Shown: positions 603 through 5,280 of the stretch, one piece after another
Position numbering within the stretch: position 1 is the stretch's first letter
Layout of the letters: every line of letters starts with the position of its first letter
Notes under the pieces: generated by a model
What the model was told of the DNA's origin: nothing
Seen by the model: only the letters and a program-made list of their open reading frames with translations
The model's database searches: none
Translations under genes and position numbers: made by a program
Assembly (NCBI GenBank): GCA_030064695.1
Contig: JASHYV010000017.1
Location: 1-21,288 of the forward strand
From: Thermoplasmata archaeon
Lineage (GTDB): Archaea > Thermoplasmatota > Thermoplasmata > UBA184
Length of the DNA stretch: 21,288 nucleotides
Direction: 5' to 3'

Positions 603-1801
603 GCGAGCACCTCCGCCGCGACCCGCTCCTTCCGGATCCCGCCGCGGACGAGCAGTTCGGCGAGACGCGGCATGTCGTCCGGCCCGAGCCCGAGGCGCGC
701 CGCCTCGGCGGTCCCGATCCGGCCGACCAGGTCGATCAGGAGCCGCTGCTTCTCCAGCCGGCGGGCGAGGGCGCCGGGTCCGATGCCGTGCTGCGCGCGG
801 AGCCGGGCGGCGTCCAGGTGGAGCTGGTGCGATCGCGAGAAGCCCTGGGCCTCCGCGATGAGCGGGACGCCGCGCTCGGATAGGGCGCGGCCGAGCGCCT
901 GCGAGTTCGCGACCACGGTCCGGGCGTACTCCGCGCCGACCCGTTCCAACTCGAGCAGCGTCTGGGCCACGGCCGCGATCCGGTTCCAGTGCGCGTTGTC
1001 GAAGATGCGCCAGACGAGCGCCGGGTCGATCTGCTGGAAGAGGTCCTCGCGGTCGGTCACGAGCAGCCCGCCCTGCGGGCCGGGGAACGACTTGTGCGTG
1101 CTGCCGAAGAGGACGTCCGCGCCCTCGCGCAGCGGGTCCTGGAACTCGCCGCCGGCGACCAGGCCGAGCACGTGCGAGGCGTCGTAGAACACGAGCGCCC
1201 CCTCCGCGTGCGCCGCCTCGGCGATCTCCCGGAGCGGATACGGGAAGAGGAAGAAGCTCTGGCCGAGCACGACGGCGTTCGGTTGCTCCGAGCGGATCGC
1301 GGCCACCGCGGCGGCCGCGTCGACCGAGTGCCCGGGCCCGTCGGCCGGCAGCGGTCGGACCGTGTAGCCGAACAGGGCCGGGATGTAGCCCGGTGCGTAG
1401 CCGTCGTAGCCGCCCTGACCGGGCTCGATCGCCAGCAGCCGCGACTTCGGCGGCAGGAGCGGCACGAGCGCGGAGAGCGCGGCGAGATGGCCGGAGAGCG
1501 GACGGACCGTGGCGTGGCGGCCGTGGAAGAGCCGCGCCGCGGCGGCGTTGCCGATCGCCTCGATCTCGTCGGTGTACCGGGTACCGGTGTACGAGTTGTC
1601 GAGCGACTCCCCGTCGCGCTCGAACGGGACCGGGAGCGTGTAGCGGCCGGCGAGGTCGCTCGCGAGGTACTTCCGGGCCGTGGGGGAGACGGCGTTCTCG
1701 CTGGGCAGGAGGTTGAAGACGTCGCGGCCCCGCCACCGATCGTGAGCGCGGACGAGCCGCTGGAGTTGAAGCTCCGCTTCGGAGGGCGCGGGCGCCGTCA
1801 C
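566..1801 (-). CDS. SHMT-like fold-type I PLP-dependent enzyme
   Basis: A 411-residue member of the serine hydroxymethyltransferase-like PLP enzymes. Visible SHMT hallmarks are LLPSEN (31-36), the PLP-binding DASH motif (Asp207, His210; DMAH in classical SHMT), the Schiff-base lysine in STHKSFPGPQGG (Lys237), and a RIGT motif (Arg361) matching the arginine that binds the substrate carboxylate. The segment that in classical SHMT carries the YAEGYPGKRYYGG pterin/folate and dimer loop is different here (about 53-80, with YTGTRYTDE). The core chemistry on an amino acid looks retained, but a tetrahydropterin co-substrate is less certain. I therefore do not assign glyA. Start: the GTG at 1801 overlaps the TGA of csl4 (GTGA), a coupling arrangement seen repeatedly here; an upstream in-frame extension would lie inside csl4. 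It sits between csl4 and the AK6 gene. Confidence 0.82.
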   Translation of the reverse strand: MTAPAPSEAELQLQRLVRAHDRWRGRDVFNLLPSENAVSPTARKYLASDLAGRYTLPVPFERDGESLDNSYTGTRYTDEIEAIGNAAAARLFHGRHATVRPLSGHLAALSALVPLLPPKSRLLAIEPGQGGYDGYAPGYIPALFGYTVRPLPADGPGHSVDAAAAVAAIRSEQPNAVVLGQSFFLFPYPLREIAEAAHAEGALVFYDASHVLGLVAGGEFQDPLREGADVLFGSTHKSFPGPQGGLLVTDREDLFQQIDPALVWRIFDNAHWNRIAAVAQTLLELERVGAEYARTVVANSQALGRALSERGVPLIAEAQGFSRSHQLHLDAARLRAQHGIGPGALARRLEKQRLLIDLVGRIGTAEAARLGLGPDDMPRLAELLVRGGIRKERVAAEVLAWRRAFPGLKFA

Positions 1802-2376
1802 GACGAGGAGGACGGCGGGGTCCCGGGACCCTGGGCGATCTTCCGGTGCTCGGTGTGCCCGCACCGCGGGCAGACCATCTGCTTCCCCTCCACCCGCATC
1901 AGCGCGTGGCAGACCTGGCAGCGCGCCGAGACGACGCCGAGCGTCGCGGAGGCGGTGGAGAGCTTGATCGACGGGCGGGGCTGGAGCACCTTCGCGAGCA
2001 GGATGTCGCCGATCGCGAACTCGCCGGAGAGCGACTCGGTGTAGCCGTCCTTCGCCTTCGAGATGTGGACCGTGCCCTCGGGGGAGCCGGGGATCCCGCG
2101 ATGGCTCGCGGCGAGCGTGAGCACCGTGCAGATCGCCATCGCCGTCTTGATCTCGTCGACCCGGGCGTACACGAGGTCGCCCTCCTGCAGCTCGGGCACC
2201 CCGTTCCGGGCCTCGACGCGGACCGTGCGGTCGCGGGGGTCGACCTGCGGCGTCCCGACGACGCTCGCGAAGATCCGGCCCGCGTGCTCGTAGGTTCCGC
2301 GTCCGGGGAGGAACTCCTCGGCGGCGCCCAGGTACTCCCCGGGCAGCACGAACTTCGGCAGCTCCTCGTTCGTCAT
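1798..2376 (-). CDS. csl4: Exosome RNA-binding subunit Csl4
   Basis: A 192-residue cap subunit of the archaeal RNA exosome, which recruits substrates and the DnaG-type partner to the Rrp41/Rrp42 ring. The order is classical: an N-terminal beta domain beginning FVLPGEYLGAAEEFLPG (9-25), a central S1 RNA-binding fold around EGDLVYARVDEIKTAMA (65-81), and a C-terminal zinc ribbon with Cys153, Cys156, Cys169 and Cys172 (CxxC...CPRC). The tail after the ribbon is short and Ser/Pro-rich. The ATG at 2376 overlaps the TGA of the upstream methyltransferase (ATGA), and its own TGA overlaps the GTG of the SHMT-like gene. Translation of the three genes is therefore probably coupled. Confidence 0.95.
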   Translation of the reverse strand: MTNEELPKFVLPGEYLGAAEEFLPGRGTYEHAGRIFASVVGTPQVDPRDRTVRVEARNGVPELQEGDLVYARVDEIKTAMAICTVLTLAASHRGIPGSPEGTVHISKAKDGYTESLSGEFAIGDILLAKVLQPRPSIKLSTASATLGVVSARCQVCHALMRVEGKQMVCPRCGHTEHRKIAQGPGTPPSSSS

Positions 2377-2996
2377 CGGTTCTCCGTGCGGATCATCCAG
2401 AGGTCGACCGCGAGGCGGACCCGGTCCTTCCGATGGTGCGGGAACAGGCGTCCCAGCTCCCAGGCGACCGGGCGCGTCGCGTCGACGTAGGCGGGTCGCA
2501 CGACCGCGCGTTCTGCTATAAAGGTTCGGGAGTCGGCGAGCGCGAACGCGTAGATCGCCGAGCCGGCGATCCGCTGCGCGGCGGCCCAGAAGGGCCGGTC
2601 TGCCCGAGCGCGTTGCGCGCCGAACGGTGGGTTCATCACGACCGTGTCCGCCGTGCCCGCGGCGTCCGCCACGTTCCGTTCCTCCCACGCCACGTCGACC
2701 CCGGCGGCTCTCGCTGCGAGTCGGCCCGCCGCCACGGCGCGAGGATCGACCTCGATCGCGCGTACCGACCGCGCCCCGAGGAGCGCCGCCCCGATCGCGA
2801 GGCGACCGGTGCCGGCGCCGAGGTCGACCACCCGGCGGCCCTCGAGGTCGCCGCGCTGGAGGGCCGCGTCGAGGAGCTCGGCGGCCGCCTCCGCCGGAGT
2901 CGCGACCTGCTCGAGCTCGGGACGTCCCCGAACGAACGGCGGGACGGCCTCGATGGCGCGGACGAGCTCCGAGCGGCGGTGGGGTGGAGGGGTCAT
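2373..2996 (-). CDS. METTL5-family RNA N6-adenine methyltransferase
   Basis: A 207-residue SAM-dependent methyltransferase of the archaeal COG2263 family, related to eukaryotic METTL5, which places m6A on small-subunit rRNA. The family signature PELEQVATP (26-34) precedes the Rossmann fold. SAM motif I is DLGAGTG (58-64), an acidic residue sits in AIEVDP (80-85), and the catalytic NPPFGAQ (122-128) is the NPPF form of adenine-N6 enzymes. The rRNA target is inferred from the family. The only plausible start is the ATG at 2996: the family N-terminus aligns from about residue 8, and no GTG or TTG follows nearby. That A is also the discriminator base of the tRNA-Leu just upstream, so the gene begins directly at the mature tRNA end with no room for a promoter or leader between them. 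Confidence 0.92.
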   Translation of the reverse strand: MTPPPHRRSELVRAIEAVPPFVRGRPELEQVATPAEAAAELLDAALQRGDLEGRRVVDLGAGTGRLAIGAALLGARSVRAIEVDPRAVAAGRLAARAAGVDVAWEERNVADAAGTADTVVMNPPFGAQRARADRPFWAAAQRIAGSAIYAFALADSRTFIAERAVVRPAYVDATRPVAWELGRLFPHHRKDRVRLAVDLWMIRTENR

Positions 2997-3112
2997 GCGG
3001 GGAGCCGGATTCGAACCGGCGCACGCCTTCGCGACAGGATCTCCTCCGCCTGGACCGGCGGGGTCCCGGGCGGTTTAAGTCCTGTGCCGTTGCCTGGCTT
3101 GGCTATCCCCGC
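2996..3112 (-). tRNA. tRNA-Leu(UAA), intron-containing
   Basis: The acceptor stem GCGGGGA pairs perfectly with TCCCCGC, followed by discriminator A and no encoded CCA. The D region shows A-box bases (TAGCCAAGCCAGG) with a GCC/GGC stem. The anticodon stem is CAGGA/TCCTG, and the 5' half of the loop reads CTTAAA, giving anticodon TAA at 3075-3077. A class II variable arm (CGC-GAAG-GCG) and a T arm GCCGG-TTCGAAT-CCGGC follow. The extra arm and UAA anticodon identify leucine. Without the 33-nt intron the mature tRNA is about 84 nt. The 5' end is only 5 nt after the PRC-barrel stop codon, and no TATA box is visible just upstream, so co-transcription with the flanking protein genes is likely. Confidence 0.95.
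3041..3073 (-). other. tRNA-Leu intron (33 nt) with bulge-helix-bulge-like fold
   Basis: This insert lies in the anticodon loop. The precursor folds as anticodon stem CAGGA/TCCTG, a short central helix CUU/AGG, 3-nt bulges AAA (5' strand) and AGA (3' strand), then an intron helix CCGCC/GGCGG enclosing a GGACC/GGUCC hairpin. That is close to the motif cut by the archaeal tRNA-splicing endonuclease, with a 3-bp rather than 4-bp centre. Placement after position 37 is drawn here; a one-base shift (after 36) also restores a 7-nt loop. Confidence 0.85.
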
Positions 3113-3117
3113 ACCGA

Positions 3118-3414
3118 TCAGCGCGCGGGGGGAGCGGCGGCGTCGGCTTCCTTCGGGCGCGCCGCCGCCTTCTTGACGGAGATGCGCTTCGGGAAGTACT
3201 TCAGCAGGACGACGTCGTTCACCGCGGAGACCCACCGGTACGGAACGTTGGCCGGACGGGAGTCCTCCACTAACATCGGGCTCGTTTCGGCGAGGTAGAG
3301 ACCGTCGACCTTCGACGCTTCGACGTCGACGACGACGTTGTCGACCTCGCCCAGAAGGCGGCCTTCGGGGGTGTACACTTGGCGACCCAGCAGTTCCGTC
3401 ATCTCGACGAGCAT
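3118..3414 (-). CDS. PRC-barrel domain protein (CdpB-like)
   Basis: A 98-residue single PRC-barrel protein. The barrel spans about residues 5-75, seen as GRQVYTPEGRLLGEVDNVVVDV, a short strand region, then VPYRWVSAVNDVVLLK. A Lys/Ala/Pro-rich tail follows. Small archaeal PRC-barrel proteins include CdpB1/CdpB2, which work with SepF in haloarchaeal cell division; others have unknown roles, so the division role is only a possibility. The ATG at 3414 is used, but a second ATG four codons later (3402) would also fit. A TATA-like AGGCATAAGAAGG lies upstream in the 69-nt gap to the DNA ligase gene. The gene ends 5 nt before the tRNA-Leu and probably heads that transcript. Confidence 0.85.
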   Translation of the reverse strand: MLVEMTELLGRQVYTPEGRLLGEVDNVVVDVEASKVDGLYLAETSPMLVEDSRPANVPYRWVSAVNDVVLLKYFPKRISVKKAAARPKEADAAAPPAR

Positions 3415-3447
3415 GGCCCGATTCTCGTCTCAGGACTCGGGGCGACC

Positions 3448-3458
3448 TTCTTATGCCT
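3448..3458 (-). promoter_or_regulatory. TATA-like promoter for the PRC-barrel/tRNA-Leu operon
   Basis: On the minus strand the A/T-rich element GGCATAAGAAG stands out in GC-rich surroundings. Start-site spacing of about 26 nt would place transcription near 3427, giving a leader of about 12 nt before the ATG at 3414. No comparable element precedes the tRNA or the METTL5 gene. Confidence 0.45.
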
Positions 3459-3483
3459 TTGGGCGGACGCGCGCCGCCGTCGC

Positions 3484-5280
3484 TCAGGCGGCGTCGGAGT
3501 CGCCGTCCGATTCGGCCGGAGCCTCCTGGCGCACCTGGGACCGGTACATCTCCAGCAGCTCCTGCGCGGTCGTCGCTTCGGTCGCGCTCTTGTCGTCGCG
3601 GAACCGCCCGGTGAACCGGGGGAACCGGAGCGCGAGCCCCGCGCCGGCCCGGACGGCGCCGACCGCGGCGCGGTGGATCGGGCTCACGGTGAGCTCGGCG
3701 CCGCGGACCTCGAGCACCAGCTTCGGGCGGAACCACTGATCGGGCGTGAGCTCCGTGTCGACCTCGGGCGGGTGCTGGGCCACTTCGAGCGGCTGGAGCC
3801 GCTTCGGCATCTCCGCCAGCTGAGCGTCGTCGAAGCCGCTGCCGACCTTGGTGAACGACTCGAAGCGGTCCTTCTTGGGATCGTAGACGGCCAGGAGGAA
3901 CGCGCCCCACCGGCCGGCCCGGCGGCCCCGCCCCGCGAACGCACCGACCACCACGCCGTCGATCGAGTCGGAGAGTCCGACCGTGTAGTCGCGCTTGTAC
4001 TTGATCCACCAGTAGCCGCGCGCACCGGCGCGGTAGGCGCTCTCCGGCTTCAGCGACTTCGCCATGACCCCCTCGCCTCCCGCCGCGATCGCCTCGTCGA
4101 GGAACGCGGTGGCCGCCTCGACCGAGTCGACGCGGCGCTGCTCGGCGAGCTTCACGCGGTCCCCGGACCGCACGATCCGCTCGAGGACCGCCCGCCGGTC
4201 CGGGAACGCGTCGGAGTACGTCGGCTTCCCACCGGCCAGCAGCACGTCGAACAGGTAGAGGCAGACCGGGATCTCCTCCTGGACCTTGTCCAGATCGTGC
4301 TTGCGGCCCCTCCGCCGCGAGACCGCCTGGAACGGCTGGATCTCCCCGGTATCGGGATCGACGGGCACGCACTCCCCCTCGACGATCGCGGGCTTCTCGC
4401 GGACCGCGCGGGGGATCTCCGCGACGAGCTCGGGGAACTGGGCGCTGATCTCGTCGAGCCGCCGGGAGAAGAGCCGGACCGGGCCCTCCTTCGGAACGTG
4501 GGCCTGGACCCGTAGGCCGTCGTACTTGAACTCCAGCGCCGTCGTCCCGCCCATCCGTTCGAGCACCGCCGCGAGGGTGGGCTCGCGCTCCGCCAGCATC
4601 GGCCGTACCGGTCGCCCGACGGTGAGCCCGATGCGGGAGAGGCCCGAGACGCCGTGCTCGACGAGCGTGGTGGCGACGAGCCCCAAGTCGCTCGACAGGT
4701 TGAACGCGGACTCGATGTCGCGACGGGCCTCCTTCGACCCGTCGGCGAAGGCGTCCGTGAGGGCGTCCAGGATCGTCATCTCCCGGACCCCGACGCGGAG
4801 GGTGCCGAGCAGGAAGCGGACCAGGAACTTCCCCTCGACCGGATCGGTGTGGGTGAGGAGGTCGGCGGCGATCTGGATCTTCGTCTCCTGGGAGCCCTCC
4901 CCCTTTGCCTCGGCGATCCGTCGGAGCTCCGCGTACACCCGATCGACGCCCAGGTCGGGCTCGGAGTCGAGCCGCTTCCGTCCGCGCAGCAGCTCGGCCG
5001 TCGTGGTGCCGAGGTCGCCCGTCTCCTTGGTCCGCCGGCGCACGTCCGCCTCGTCGCTGCCCGTCGCGATCGCGACGGCCCGGCGGGCGAACGAGTCGGC
5101 CACGCCGAGCTCGATCCCCTCGTATTCCGGTCGCAGCATCCCCTGGGCAAGGAAGAGGACCTCGGTGAGGGTTGGGGGCCGCAGCGGGCGGACGAGGTCG
5201 GAGAGGATCTTCCGCATCGCGAGCCGCTTCGGCTCGGCCTCGAGGCGTTCGAACGCCTCCGCGAGCTCACGGAACTTCAT
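3484..5280 (-). CDS. lig: ATP-dependent DNA ligase
   Basis: A 598-residue archaeal replicative-type DNA ligase. It seals nicks via a lysine-AMP intermediate in Okazaki-fragment joining and repair. Order: N-terminal all-helical DNA-binding domain (about 1-215), adenylation domain with catalytic Lys252 in FKYDGLRVQ (KxDGxR), then later nucleotidyltransferase motifs FDVLLAGG, GGEGVMAKS and WWIKYKRDY, and a C-terminal OB domain ending near RFPRFTGRFRDDKSATEATT. Length and motif order are those of the family. The start is the ATG at 5280, giving the usual N-terminus MKFRELAEAFERLEA; a longer reading frame upstream would run deeper into rpe. The first 14 bases overlap the end of rpe, so the two genes are probably co-translated. 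Confidence 0.96.
   Translation of the reverse strand: MKFRELAEAFERLEAEPKRLAMRKILSDLVRPLRPPTLTEVLFLAQGMLRPEYEGIELGVADSFARRAVAIATGSDEADVRRRTKETGDLGTTTAELLRGRKRLDSEPDLGVDRVYAELRRIAEAKGEGSQETKIQIAADLLTHTDPVEGKFLVRFLLGTLRVGVREMTILDALTDAFADGSKEARRDIESAFNLSSDLGLVATTLVEHGVSGLSRIGLTVGRPVRPMLAEREPTLAAVLERMGGTTALEFKYDGLRVQAHVPKEGPVRLFSRRLDEISAQFPELVAEIPRAVREKPAIVEGECVPVDPDTGEIQPFQAVSRRRGRKHDLDKVQEEIPVCLYLFDVLLAGGKPTYSDAFPDRRAVLERIVRSGDRVKLAEQRRVDSVEAATAFLDEAIAAGGEGVMAKSLKPESAYRAGARGYWWIKYKRDYTVGLSDSIDGVVVGAFAGRGRRAGRWGAFLLAVYDPKKDRFESFTKVGSGFDDAQLAEMPKRLQPLEVAQHPPEVDTELTPDQWFRPKLVLEVRGAELTVSPIHRAAVGAVRAGAGLALRFPRFTGRFRDDKSATEATTAQELLEMYRSQVRQEAPAESDGDSDAA

Follow-up and report, generated by a model that had tools for sequence, protein, structure and literature searches.

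Same-strand overlap between a tRNA and coding sequence is a known phenomenon, and the tRNA punctuation of mitochondrial transcripts is a related one. The tRNA-Sec gene (selC) is nested in or overlaps selB in Alphaproteobacteria and other groups, where the tRNA and the protein have been proposed to be alternative products, and the overlap has been described as highly conserved yet not essential (PMC8124441). There the whole tRNA lies inside an upstream open reading frame whose stop codon overlaps the next start codon, and in one lineage the end of tRNA-Sec lies at -2 relative to the start codon of selA (PMC8124441). A single A belongs to both tRNA-Tyr and tRNA-Cys in human mitochondria, with conflicting reports of the side on which the precursor is cut (PMC5544427). 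In Thermococcus kodakarensis, a tRNA-Lys lies in the 159-nt 5' leader of the TK0306 helicase gene, for which no start-codon overlap is described (PMC4247193).

In the window (the whole 21,288-nt stretch of DNA that was analyzed), an archaeal tRNA-Leu(UAA) gene shares its discriminator base with the start codon of a gene for a METTL5-family methyltransferase. As in selC/selB, a tRNA and coding sequence of one strand overlap, release of the tRNA would destroy a message, and the overlap is not essential across relatives; the tRNA-Sec that ends at -2 of selA is one step from this layout (PMC8124441). Unlike selC/selB, the upstream open reading frame ends before the tRNA, base 73 alone is shared with the downstream start, and the tRNA is an archaeal, intron-containing tRNA-Leu. 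The locus resembles the mitochondrial pair in that a discriminator A is shared and one cut cannot serve both partners, but here these are a tRNA and a start codon rather than two tRNAs (PMC5544427). It resembles TK0306 in that an archaeal tRNA is apparently co-transcribed ahead of a protein gene (PMC4247193). Among the papers listed by searches of the open-access literature, none was seen to describe a tRNA-Leu/METTL5 overlap. What is novel here is the single shared base that is both discriminator and start; tRNA/mRNA overlaps as such are known.

The window has a GC content of 69.7% and encodes archaeal proteins, and those relatives of its METTL5 protein that bear an organism name carry Thermoplasmata or Thermoplasmatota labels. 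The features of the locus are listed below. The array is tight on the 5' side of the tRNA, as the initial annotation had stated, with the PRC stop codon at 3120-3118 and 5 nt between it and tRNA base 1. At the other end, the METTL5 stop and the Csl4 start overlap in a 4-nt ATGA.

Features of the tRNA-Leu(UAA)/METTL5 locus in the window
Feature	Coordinates	Strand	Basis
BRE/TATA-like promoter of the PRC-barrel gene, CCCAAAGGCATAAGAAGG	3446..3463	-	alignment upstream of PRC, 75 loci
PRC-barrel gene, 98 aa	3118..3414	-	Pfam PF05239, E 4.5e-9
tRNA-Leu(UAA) gene, intron-containing; base 73 at 2996; CCA not encoded	2996..3112	-	RF00005
tRNA intron, 33 nt, after position 37; ends assigned by hand	3041..3073	-	
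Anticodon-arm sequence AGGACTTAAACC; possible internal TATA box (rival reading)	3072..3083	-	matrix match
METTL5 ATG start; its A is tRNA base 73	2994..2996	-	
METTL5-family methyltransferase, 207 aa, NPPF motif	2373..2996	-	
Exosome subunit Csl4	1798..2376	-	NCBIfam NF034126, 174 bits against a cut-off of 90

Neither ARAGORN with default settings nor an Rfam gathering-threshold scan of the whole window listed a tRNA at this place, for which the intron is the probable reason. A cmscan of positions 2900-3200 gave an RF00005 match at 2996-3112 on the minus strand (44.8 bits against a cut-off of 29, E 1.3e-8), and ARAGORN run on the hand-spliced form, with the 33-nt intron removed, returned an 84-nt tRNA-Leu(TAA). 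Run on the unspliced sequence with introns allowed, ARAGORN called Ser(TGA). Automatic annotation may lack the window tRNA owing to the intron (3041-3073). The molecule has a cloverleaf, a long variable arm, a UAA anticodon and a 7-bp acceptor stem, in which GCGGGGA/TCCCCGC pairs 3112-3106 with 3003-2997 and thereby places base 73, an A, at 2996. A73 is a reported leucine identity element in Haloferax (PMC9976931). The tRNA genes of relatives, 104-126 nt long, have inserts at the same place as the window intron.

The downstream open reading frame (2996..2373) matches solved proteins that include PH1948 (4.7e-27), METTL5 (6h2u, E 1e-15) and Ta1320, and it is placed in the METTL5 family by this similarity, by its conserved N-terminus and by NPPF at residues 122-125. 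The two closest proteins in the database share 81% and 76% identity with it across 98-99% of its length. The initial annotation had claimed that the tRNA discriminator is the first base of the only plausible start codon of this gene. Our analysis confirmed both parts: A73 (2996) is the A of the ATG at 2996-2994, and the next in-frame ATG, GTG or TTG is at residue 56, past the conserved N-terminus. The mature tRNA and needed coding sequence therefore overlap on the same strand by one base, A73. The 90% identity cluster of this METTL5 consists of two sequences from four contigs, which weakly disfavors an assembly error behind the overlap. The window's nearest relatives, P0002 and P0003, which are protein records only, begin with MTP and may share the overlap.

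To place the locus among its relatives, contigs were scanned with a profile from an alignment of 32 METTL5 homologues, and the best 80 of at least 277 confirmed matches were kept. Then 106 genomes of one hit's order were scanned; a METTL5 match at E <= 1e-40 was present in 92 and absent from 14. We read 90 order loci (L081-L170) from 89 genomes, leaving out three genomes with partial matches (G035, G039 and G071). Of the 90, 81 have the tRNA motif at most 450 nt ahead of METTL5. The nine loci without it include two distant ones (L168, L169) and three (L112, L147, L154) in which the tRNA found within 1500 nt upstream is a tRNA-Leu(CAA), not UAA. No tRNA motif was found within 450 nt upstream of METTL5 in the loci of other archaea (L023, L026-L080), some of which have little upstream sequence; among the contig-scan loci, L019 and L057 lack the N-terminal region. 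The comparison set was thus 82 distinct loci, the window and 81 others, all 81 being among the 90 order loci. Where the 5' end of the tRNA was mapped (78 loci), a PRC gene lies upstream in 76, and in the two exceptions the sequence reaches no more than 27 and 10 nt beyond the tRNA. The PRC stop codon is 4-8 nt from the tRNA in 63 of the 76. Csl4 follows METTL5 in all 43 loci with enough sequence. Judged by this gene order, PRC - tRNA-Leu(UAA) - METTL5 - Csl4 is an old array within one Thermoplasmata order.

The position of the METTL5 start varies within this array. Starts were assigned to the canonical codon nearest the conserved N-terminus, unless an in-frame ATG sits on base 73. By this rule, the METTL5 start falls on base 73 at 9 of the 82 loci (the window, L020, L024, L025, L161, L162, L164, L165 and L166), 3-46 nt past it in 19 (near-start loci) and 50-339 nt past it in 46 (far-start loci), and the remaining 8 (L005, L014, L091, L145, L149, L155, L157, L158) lack any canonical start in the stretch from base 73 to the conserved N-terminus. 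The search for a conserved fusion in related genomes, which had been suggested as a check, gave a divided answer: the fusion recurs, but in 65 of the 82 loci the assigned start lies 3-339 nt beyond base 73, indicating that it is not a conserved requirement, and conservation across the order was rejected. Most relatives thus show what the initial annotation had named as counting against its proposal, a gene start away from the tRNA.

Eight of the nine overlap loci belong to one sister clade of nine members (support 0.988 in a FastTree METTL5 tree). The window falls outside this clade, among lineages with ATC at base 73, so the overlap was gained at least twice or lost many times. The nine base-73-to-METTL5 distances of the sister clade (18, 18, 18, 24, 48, 63, 102, 105 and 114) have seven lengths and are all multiples of 3, the frame-keeping loci being related sequences and not independent events; the phases in the other 73 loci, window included, are 35/23/15. 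L025, L162, L164, L165 and the window have no second canonical start before residue 28, and L166 has a TTG at residue 11. Additional in-frame starts upstream of the conserved N-terminus make the use of base 73 less certain in L020, L024 and L161.

We next consider promoter signals, which differ among these classes. Before the PRC gene, the 75 aligned loci taken together show a BRE/TATA-like element, with an A+T fraction of 0.77-0.88 at -53 to -51 relative to the second PRC ATG, and a minority of the 75 have other A+T-rich boxes at this place. No comparable peak was found just upstream of the tRNA in 76 loci, where the highest value was 0.47 at -36; a value of 0.57 at -66 from the tRNA falls within PRC codons. 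The 46 far-start loci showed an A+T fraction of 0.71 at -28 to -25 from the METTL5 start (5,000 random placements between tRNA and start gave a mean of 0.24 and a maximum of 0.37) and a second rise to 0.63 at -10. Archaeal transcription begins about 23 bp past the TATA box (PMC4247193), so this spacing fits leaderless messages, and METTL5 in the far-start loci apparently has its own leaderless promoter. The 19 near-start loci have no such peak (0.25 at -28 to -25). The nine overlap loci reach 0.44 there, above the near-start value, because the tRNA bases at this place are T-rich in the sister clade.

The window itself has GTGC at -28 to -25 from the METTL5 start, and its GAAGGCGTGCGC at -34 to -23 scores -1.0 with the METTL5 promoter matrix, under the window's 95th percentile of 1.6. 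The initial annotation had noted no TATA box between the PRC stop and the tRNA, and the lack of a box is supported at the position used by relatives. The matrix is weak for single loci, since only 24 of 44 sites exceeded the window's 95th percentile in a leave-one-out analysis, and this level was also passed by 4 of the 9 overlap loci (tRNA sequence) and 2 of the 19 near-start loci; it was dropped as a single-locus test, and single genes may still have a METTL5 promoter. A Shine-Dalgarno-like word precedes the METTL5 start in 1 of the 46 far-start and 4 of the 19 near-start loci, and none was found 4-15 nt before the ATG in the nine overlap loci, window included.

The explanation that we hold to be the most likely, with confidence a little better than even, is that one transcript by default yields either the tRNA or METTL5. 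The overlap, the sole canonical start, the gene order, the element before PRC and the lack of an A+T-rich box at the relatives' position can all be read in the sequence, and such signals favor the presence of both tRNA and METTL5 on one transcript. With METTL5 beginning on base 73, the window lineage has no tRNA-METTL5 spacer and hence no room for the METTL5 promoter that many relatives have there. PRC-barrel, tRNA-Leu(UAA), METTL5 and Csl4 would then form a single transcription unit, read through from the promoter before PRC to Csl4. RNase Z removes the 3' trailer of tRNA precursors, and a cut after base 73 is standard for tRNAs without an encoded CCA. RNase P and RNase Z would release the tRNA ends, and the downstream RNA left by RNase Z would start with U74, leaving METTL5 without a start; Csl4, unlike METTL5, would keep its own. 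Each transcript would therefore give either a mature tRNA or a translatable METTL5 message, with METTL5 made from the uncut fraction. The initial annotation had proposed this mutual exclusion on one molecule, and it does follow provided that the genes are co-transcribed and the cut falls 3' of base 73. Its further suggestion, that tRNA supply could be tied to the expression of the downstream genes, gained no support for either METTL5 or Csl4. We read the overlap as a probable outcome of compaction that makes the products alternatives by default, and not as an evolved sensor.

How the uncut precursor would be translated is harder to picture without help, since the METTL5 AUG adjoins a stably folded tRNA (-38.6 kcal/mol for the spliced form) and no Shine-Dalgarno-like word precedes it. 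Ribosomes might reach the AUG on an unfolded precursor, after a ribosome terminating on PRC opens the acceptor stem, or from a start inside the tRNA. In the minimum-energy fold of a 175-nt precursor piece, the 5' acceptor strand pairs with METTL5 codons and the cloverleaf is not formed, but shuffled sequences pair equally well (z-score, -0.54).

A start inside the tRNA would remove the competition between tRNA and METTL5. The anticodon-loop CTTAAA would act as the TATA box of a METTL5-Csl4 promoter, and transcription would begin in the intron near 3049. The resulting message would have a leader of about 53 nt that contains the 3' half of the tRNA only, and it could not be cut as a tRNA. We regard this reading as the main rival, possible but doubtful. 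Within 3520..2990, the promoter matrix scores highest on the anticodon-arm sequence AGGACTTAAACC at 3083 (5.6 against a 99th percentile of 3.5), and 644 intragenic start sites have been reported in Thermococcus kodakarensis (PMC4247193). Chance alone, however, would supply about 0.8 such matches per 530 nt. The anticodon dictates this sequence, and the tRNAs of relatives score alike (median 5.4), including those at loci with a separate METTL5 promoter. The lack of a Shine-Dalgarno-like word near the window ATG also speaks against this reading. The hypothetical intron-start message has a folding z-score of -0.55, which, like that of the precursor piece, favors neither side. The proposed check for an internal promoter or another start came out mixed, finding no other canonical start before residue 56 but also this chance-level match in the anticodon loop.

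A second variant keeps the single transcript and adds a choice gated by ribosomes, which we consider improbable. A ribosome terminating on PRC would open the 5' acceptor strand, block RNase P and RNase Z and free the AUG; with PRC untranslated, the tRNA would fold and be cut out, and the METTL5 start would be lost. The geometry that this requires is widespread, given the 4-8 nt between PRC stop and tRNA in most loci, but compaction explains that too. If true, upstream translation would set the ratio of tRNA-Leu(UAA) to the rRNA methylase.

It is still less probable, in our judgment, that the base-73 ATG is coincidental and that METTL5 starts at a non-canonical codon elsewhere. When 54 other tRNAs were read from two relatives, G003 and G011 (two of the 54 of doubtful register), three had ATG at bases 73-75, so one isolated occurrence would not be surprising. 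In L119 and L129, an ATG lies on base 73 but outside the METTL5 frame, and the eight loci listed above lack a canonical start before the conserved N-terminus. Against coincidence, the window has no canonical start until residue 56, and the sister-clade spacers, whatever their length, are all in frame from base 73. It is the conserved frame and apparent use of the base-73 ATG that make it meaningful, not its mere presence.

Several observations touch on starts and tRNA ends elsewhere in the order. In six of the eight METTL5 genes without a canonical start, GTG or TTG occurs further on, at residues 11-15. Four database proteins (P0009, P0014, P0017, P0036) extend N-terminally, in frame, through what reads as the tRNA's 3' half (..AGSNPAPR) and suggest AT[A/C/T] at base 73; picked for being in frame and known as proteins only, they were not counted. 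For these proteins and for the genes without a canonical start, either the annotated starts are wrong or initiation is non-canonical. The idea that further tRNAs of the order start genes on base 73 was also considered and rejected, the open reading frames with ATG at base 73 at L196, L215 and L276 looking non-coding by eye. All 54 tRNAs of G003 and G011 have a pyrimidine at base 74 (30 C and 24 T, with two registers doubtful), and a few tRNA-Leu genes of other order genomes have G or A there.

Base 73 of the METTL5-linked tRNA-Leu(UAA) is T in 14 of the 82 loci, from 13 genomes (L003, L005, L012, L017, L021, L084, L092, L093, L097, L101, L113, L138, L143, L170), and G or C in none of the 82. 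Eight of the 14 form one tree group (support 0.82), and the rest lie in about five other places. T73 in G027 rests on a single reading. One genome, G097, carries two different METTL5 loci (L113, L170), both with T73, and its bin is probably mixed. Other tRNA-Leu genes were listed with a Leu covariance model, which was used for this purpose only. The three recognized in G003 among the best 30 of 40 matches (CAA, GAG, CAG) are all A73, and so are 27 of the 28 other tRNA-Leu genes taken from ten more T73 genomes and an A73 control. The lone exception, a GAG gene of G034 whose acceptor was read as TGCAGGG against GCAGGGG in relatives, was taken as a one-base register shift. The other tRNA-Leu genes read are thus A73 in 11 of the 13 T73 genomes, one of them after this shift. 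Each genome read has one Leu model match above 90 bits, the METTL5-linked gene, and a second Leu(UAA) gene may exist among the weaker matches. At the T73 loci, either U73 is accepted by LeuRS or base 73 is altered after transcription.

The weakest alternative, a leaderless METTL5 message made by cutting before base 73 and re-adding that base to the tRNA, as reported for overlapping mitochondrial tRNAs, whose cut side is given differently in different reports, draws on the start lying exactly on base 73 in two separate tree parts and on T73 beside otherwise A73 tRNA-Leu genes, but we judge it the least likely of all, for an unconstrained base 73 in a GC-rich genome should show G or C and none of the 82 loci does, the T73 loci have the METTL5 start elsewhere than on base 73, and we know of no discriminator-repair enzyme in archaea.

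A single transcript with alternative products therefore stays our preferred reading. A discriminator that is also a start codon offers a one-base, testable case of archaeal tRNA/protein competition for one RNA. The order provides a natural series for measuring what the overlap costs, with METTL5 starts 0, 3-46 and 50 or more nt from the tRNA, some behind an apparent separate promoter and some not, and the T73 relatives bear on the strictness of A73 for leucine identity. Since the genes of the array act on rRNA and RNA turnover, any coupling would link tRNA supply to ribosome-related functions.
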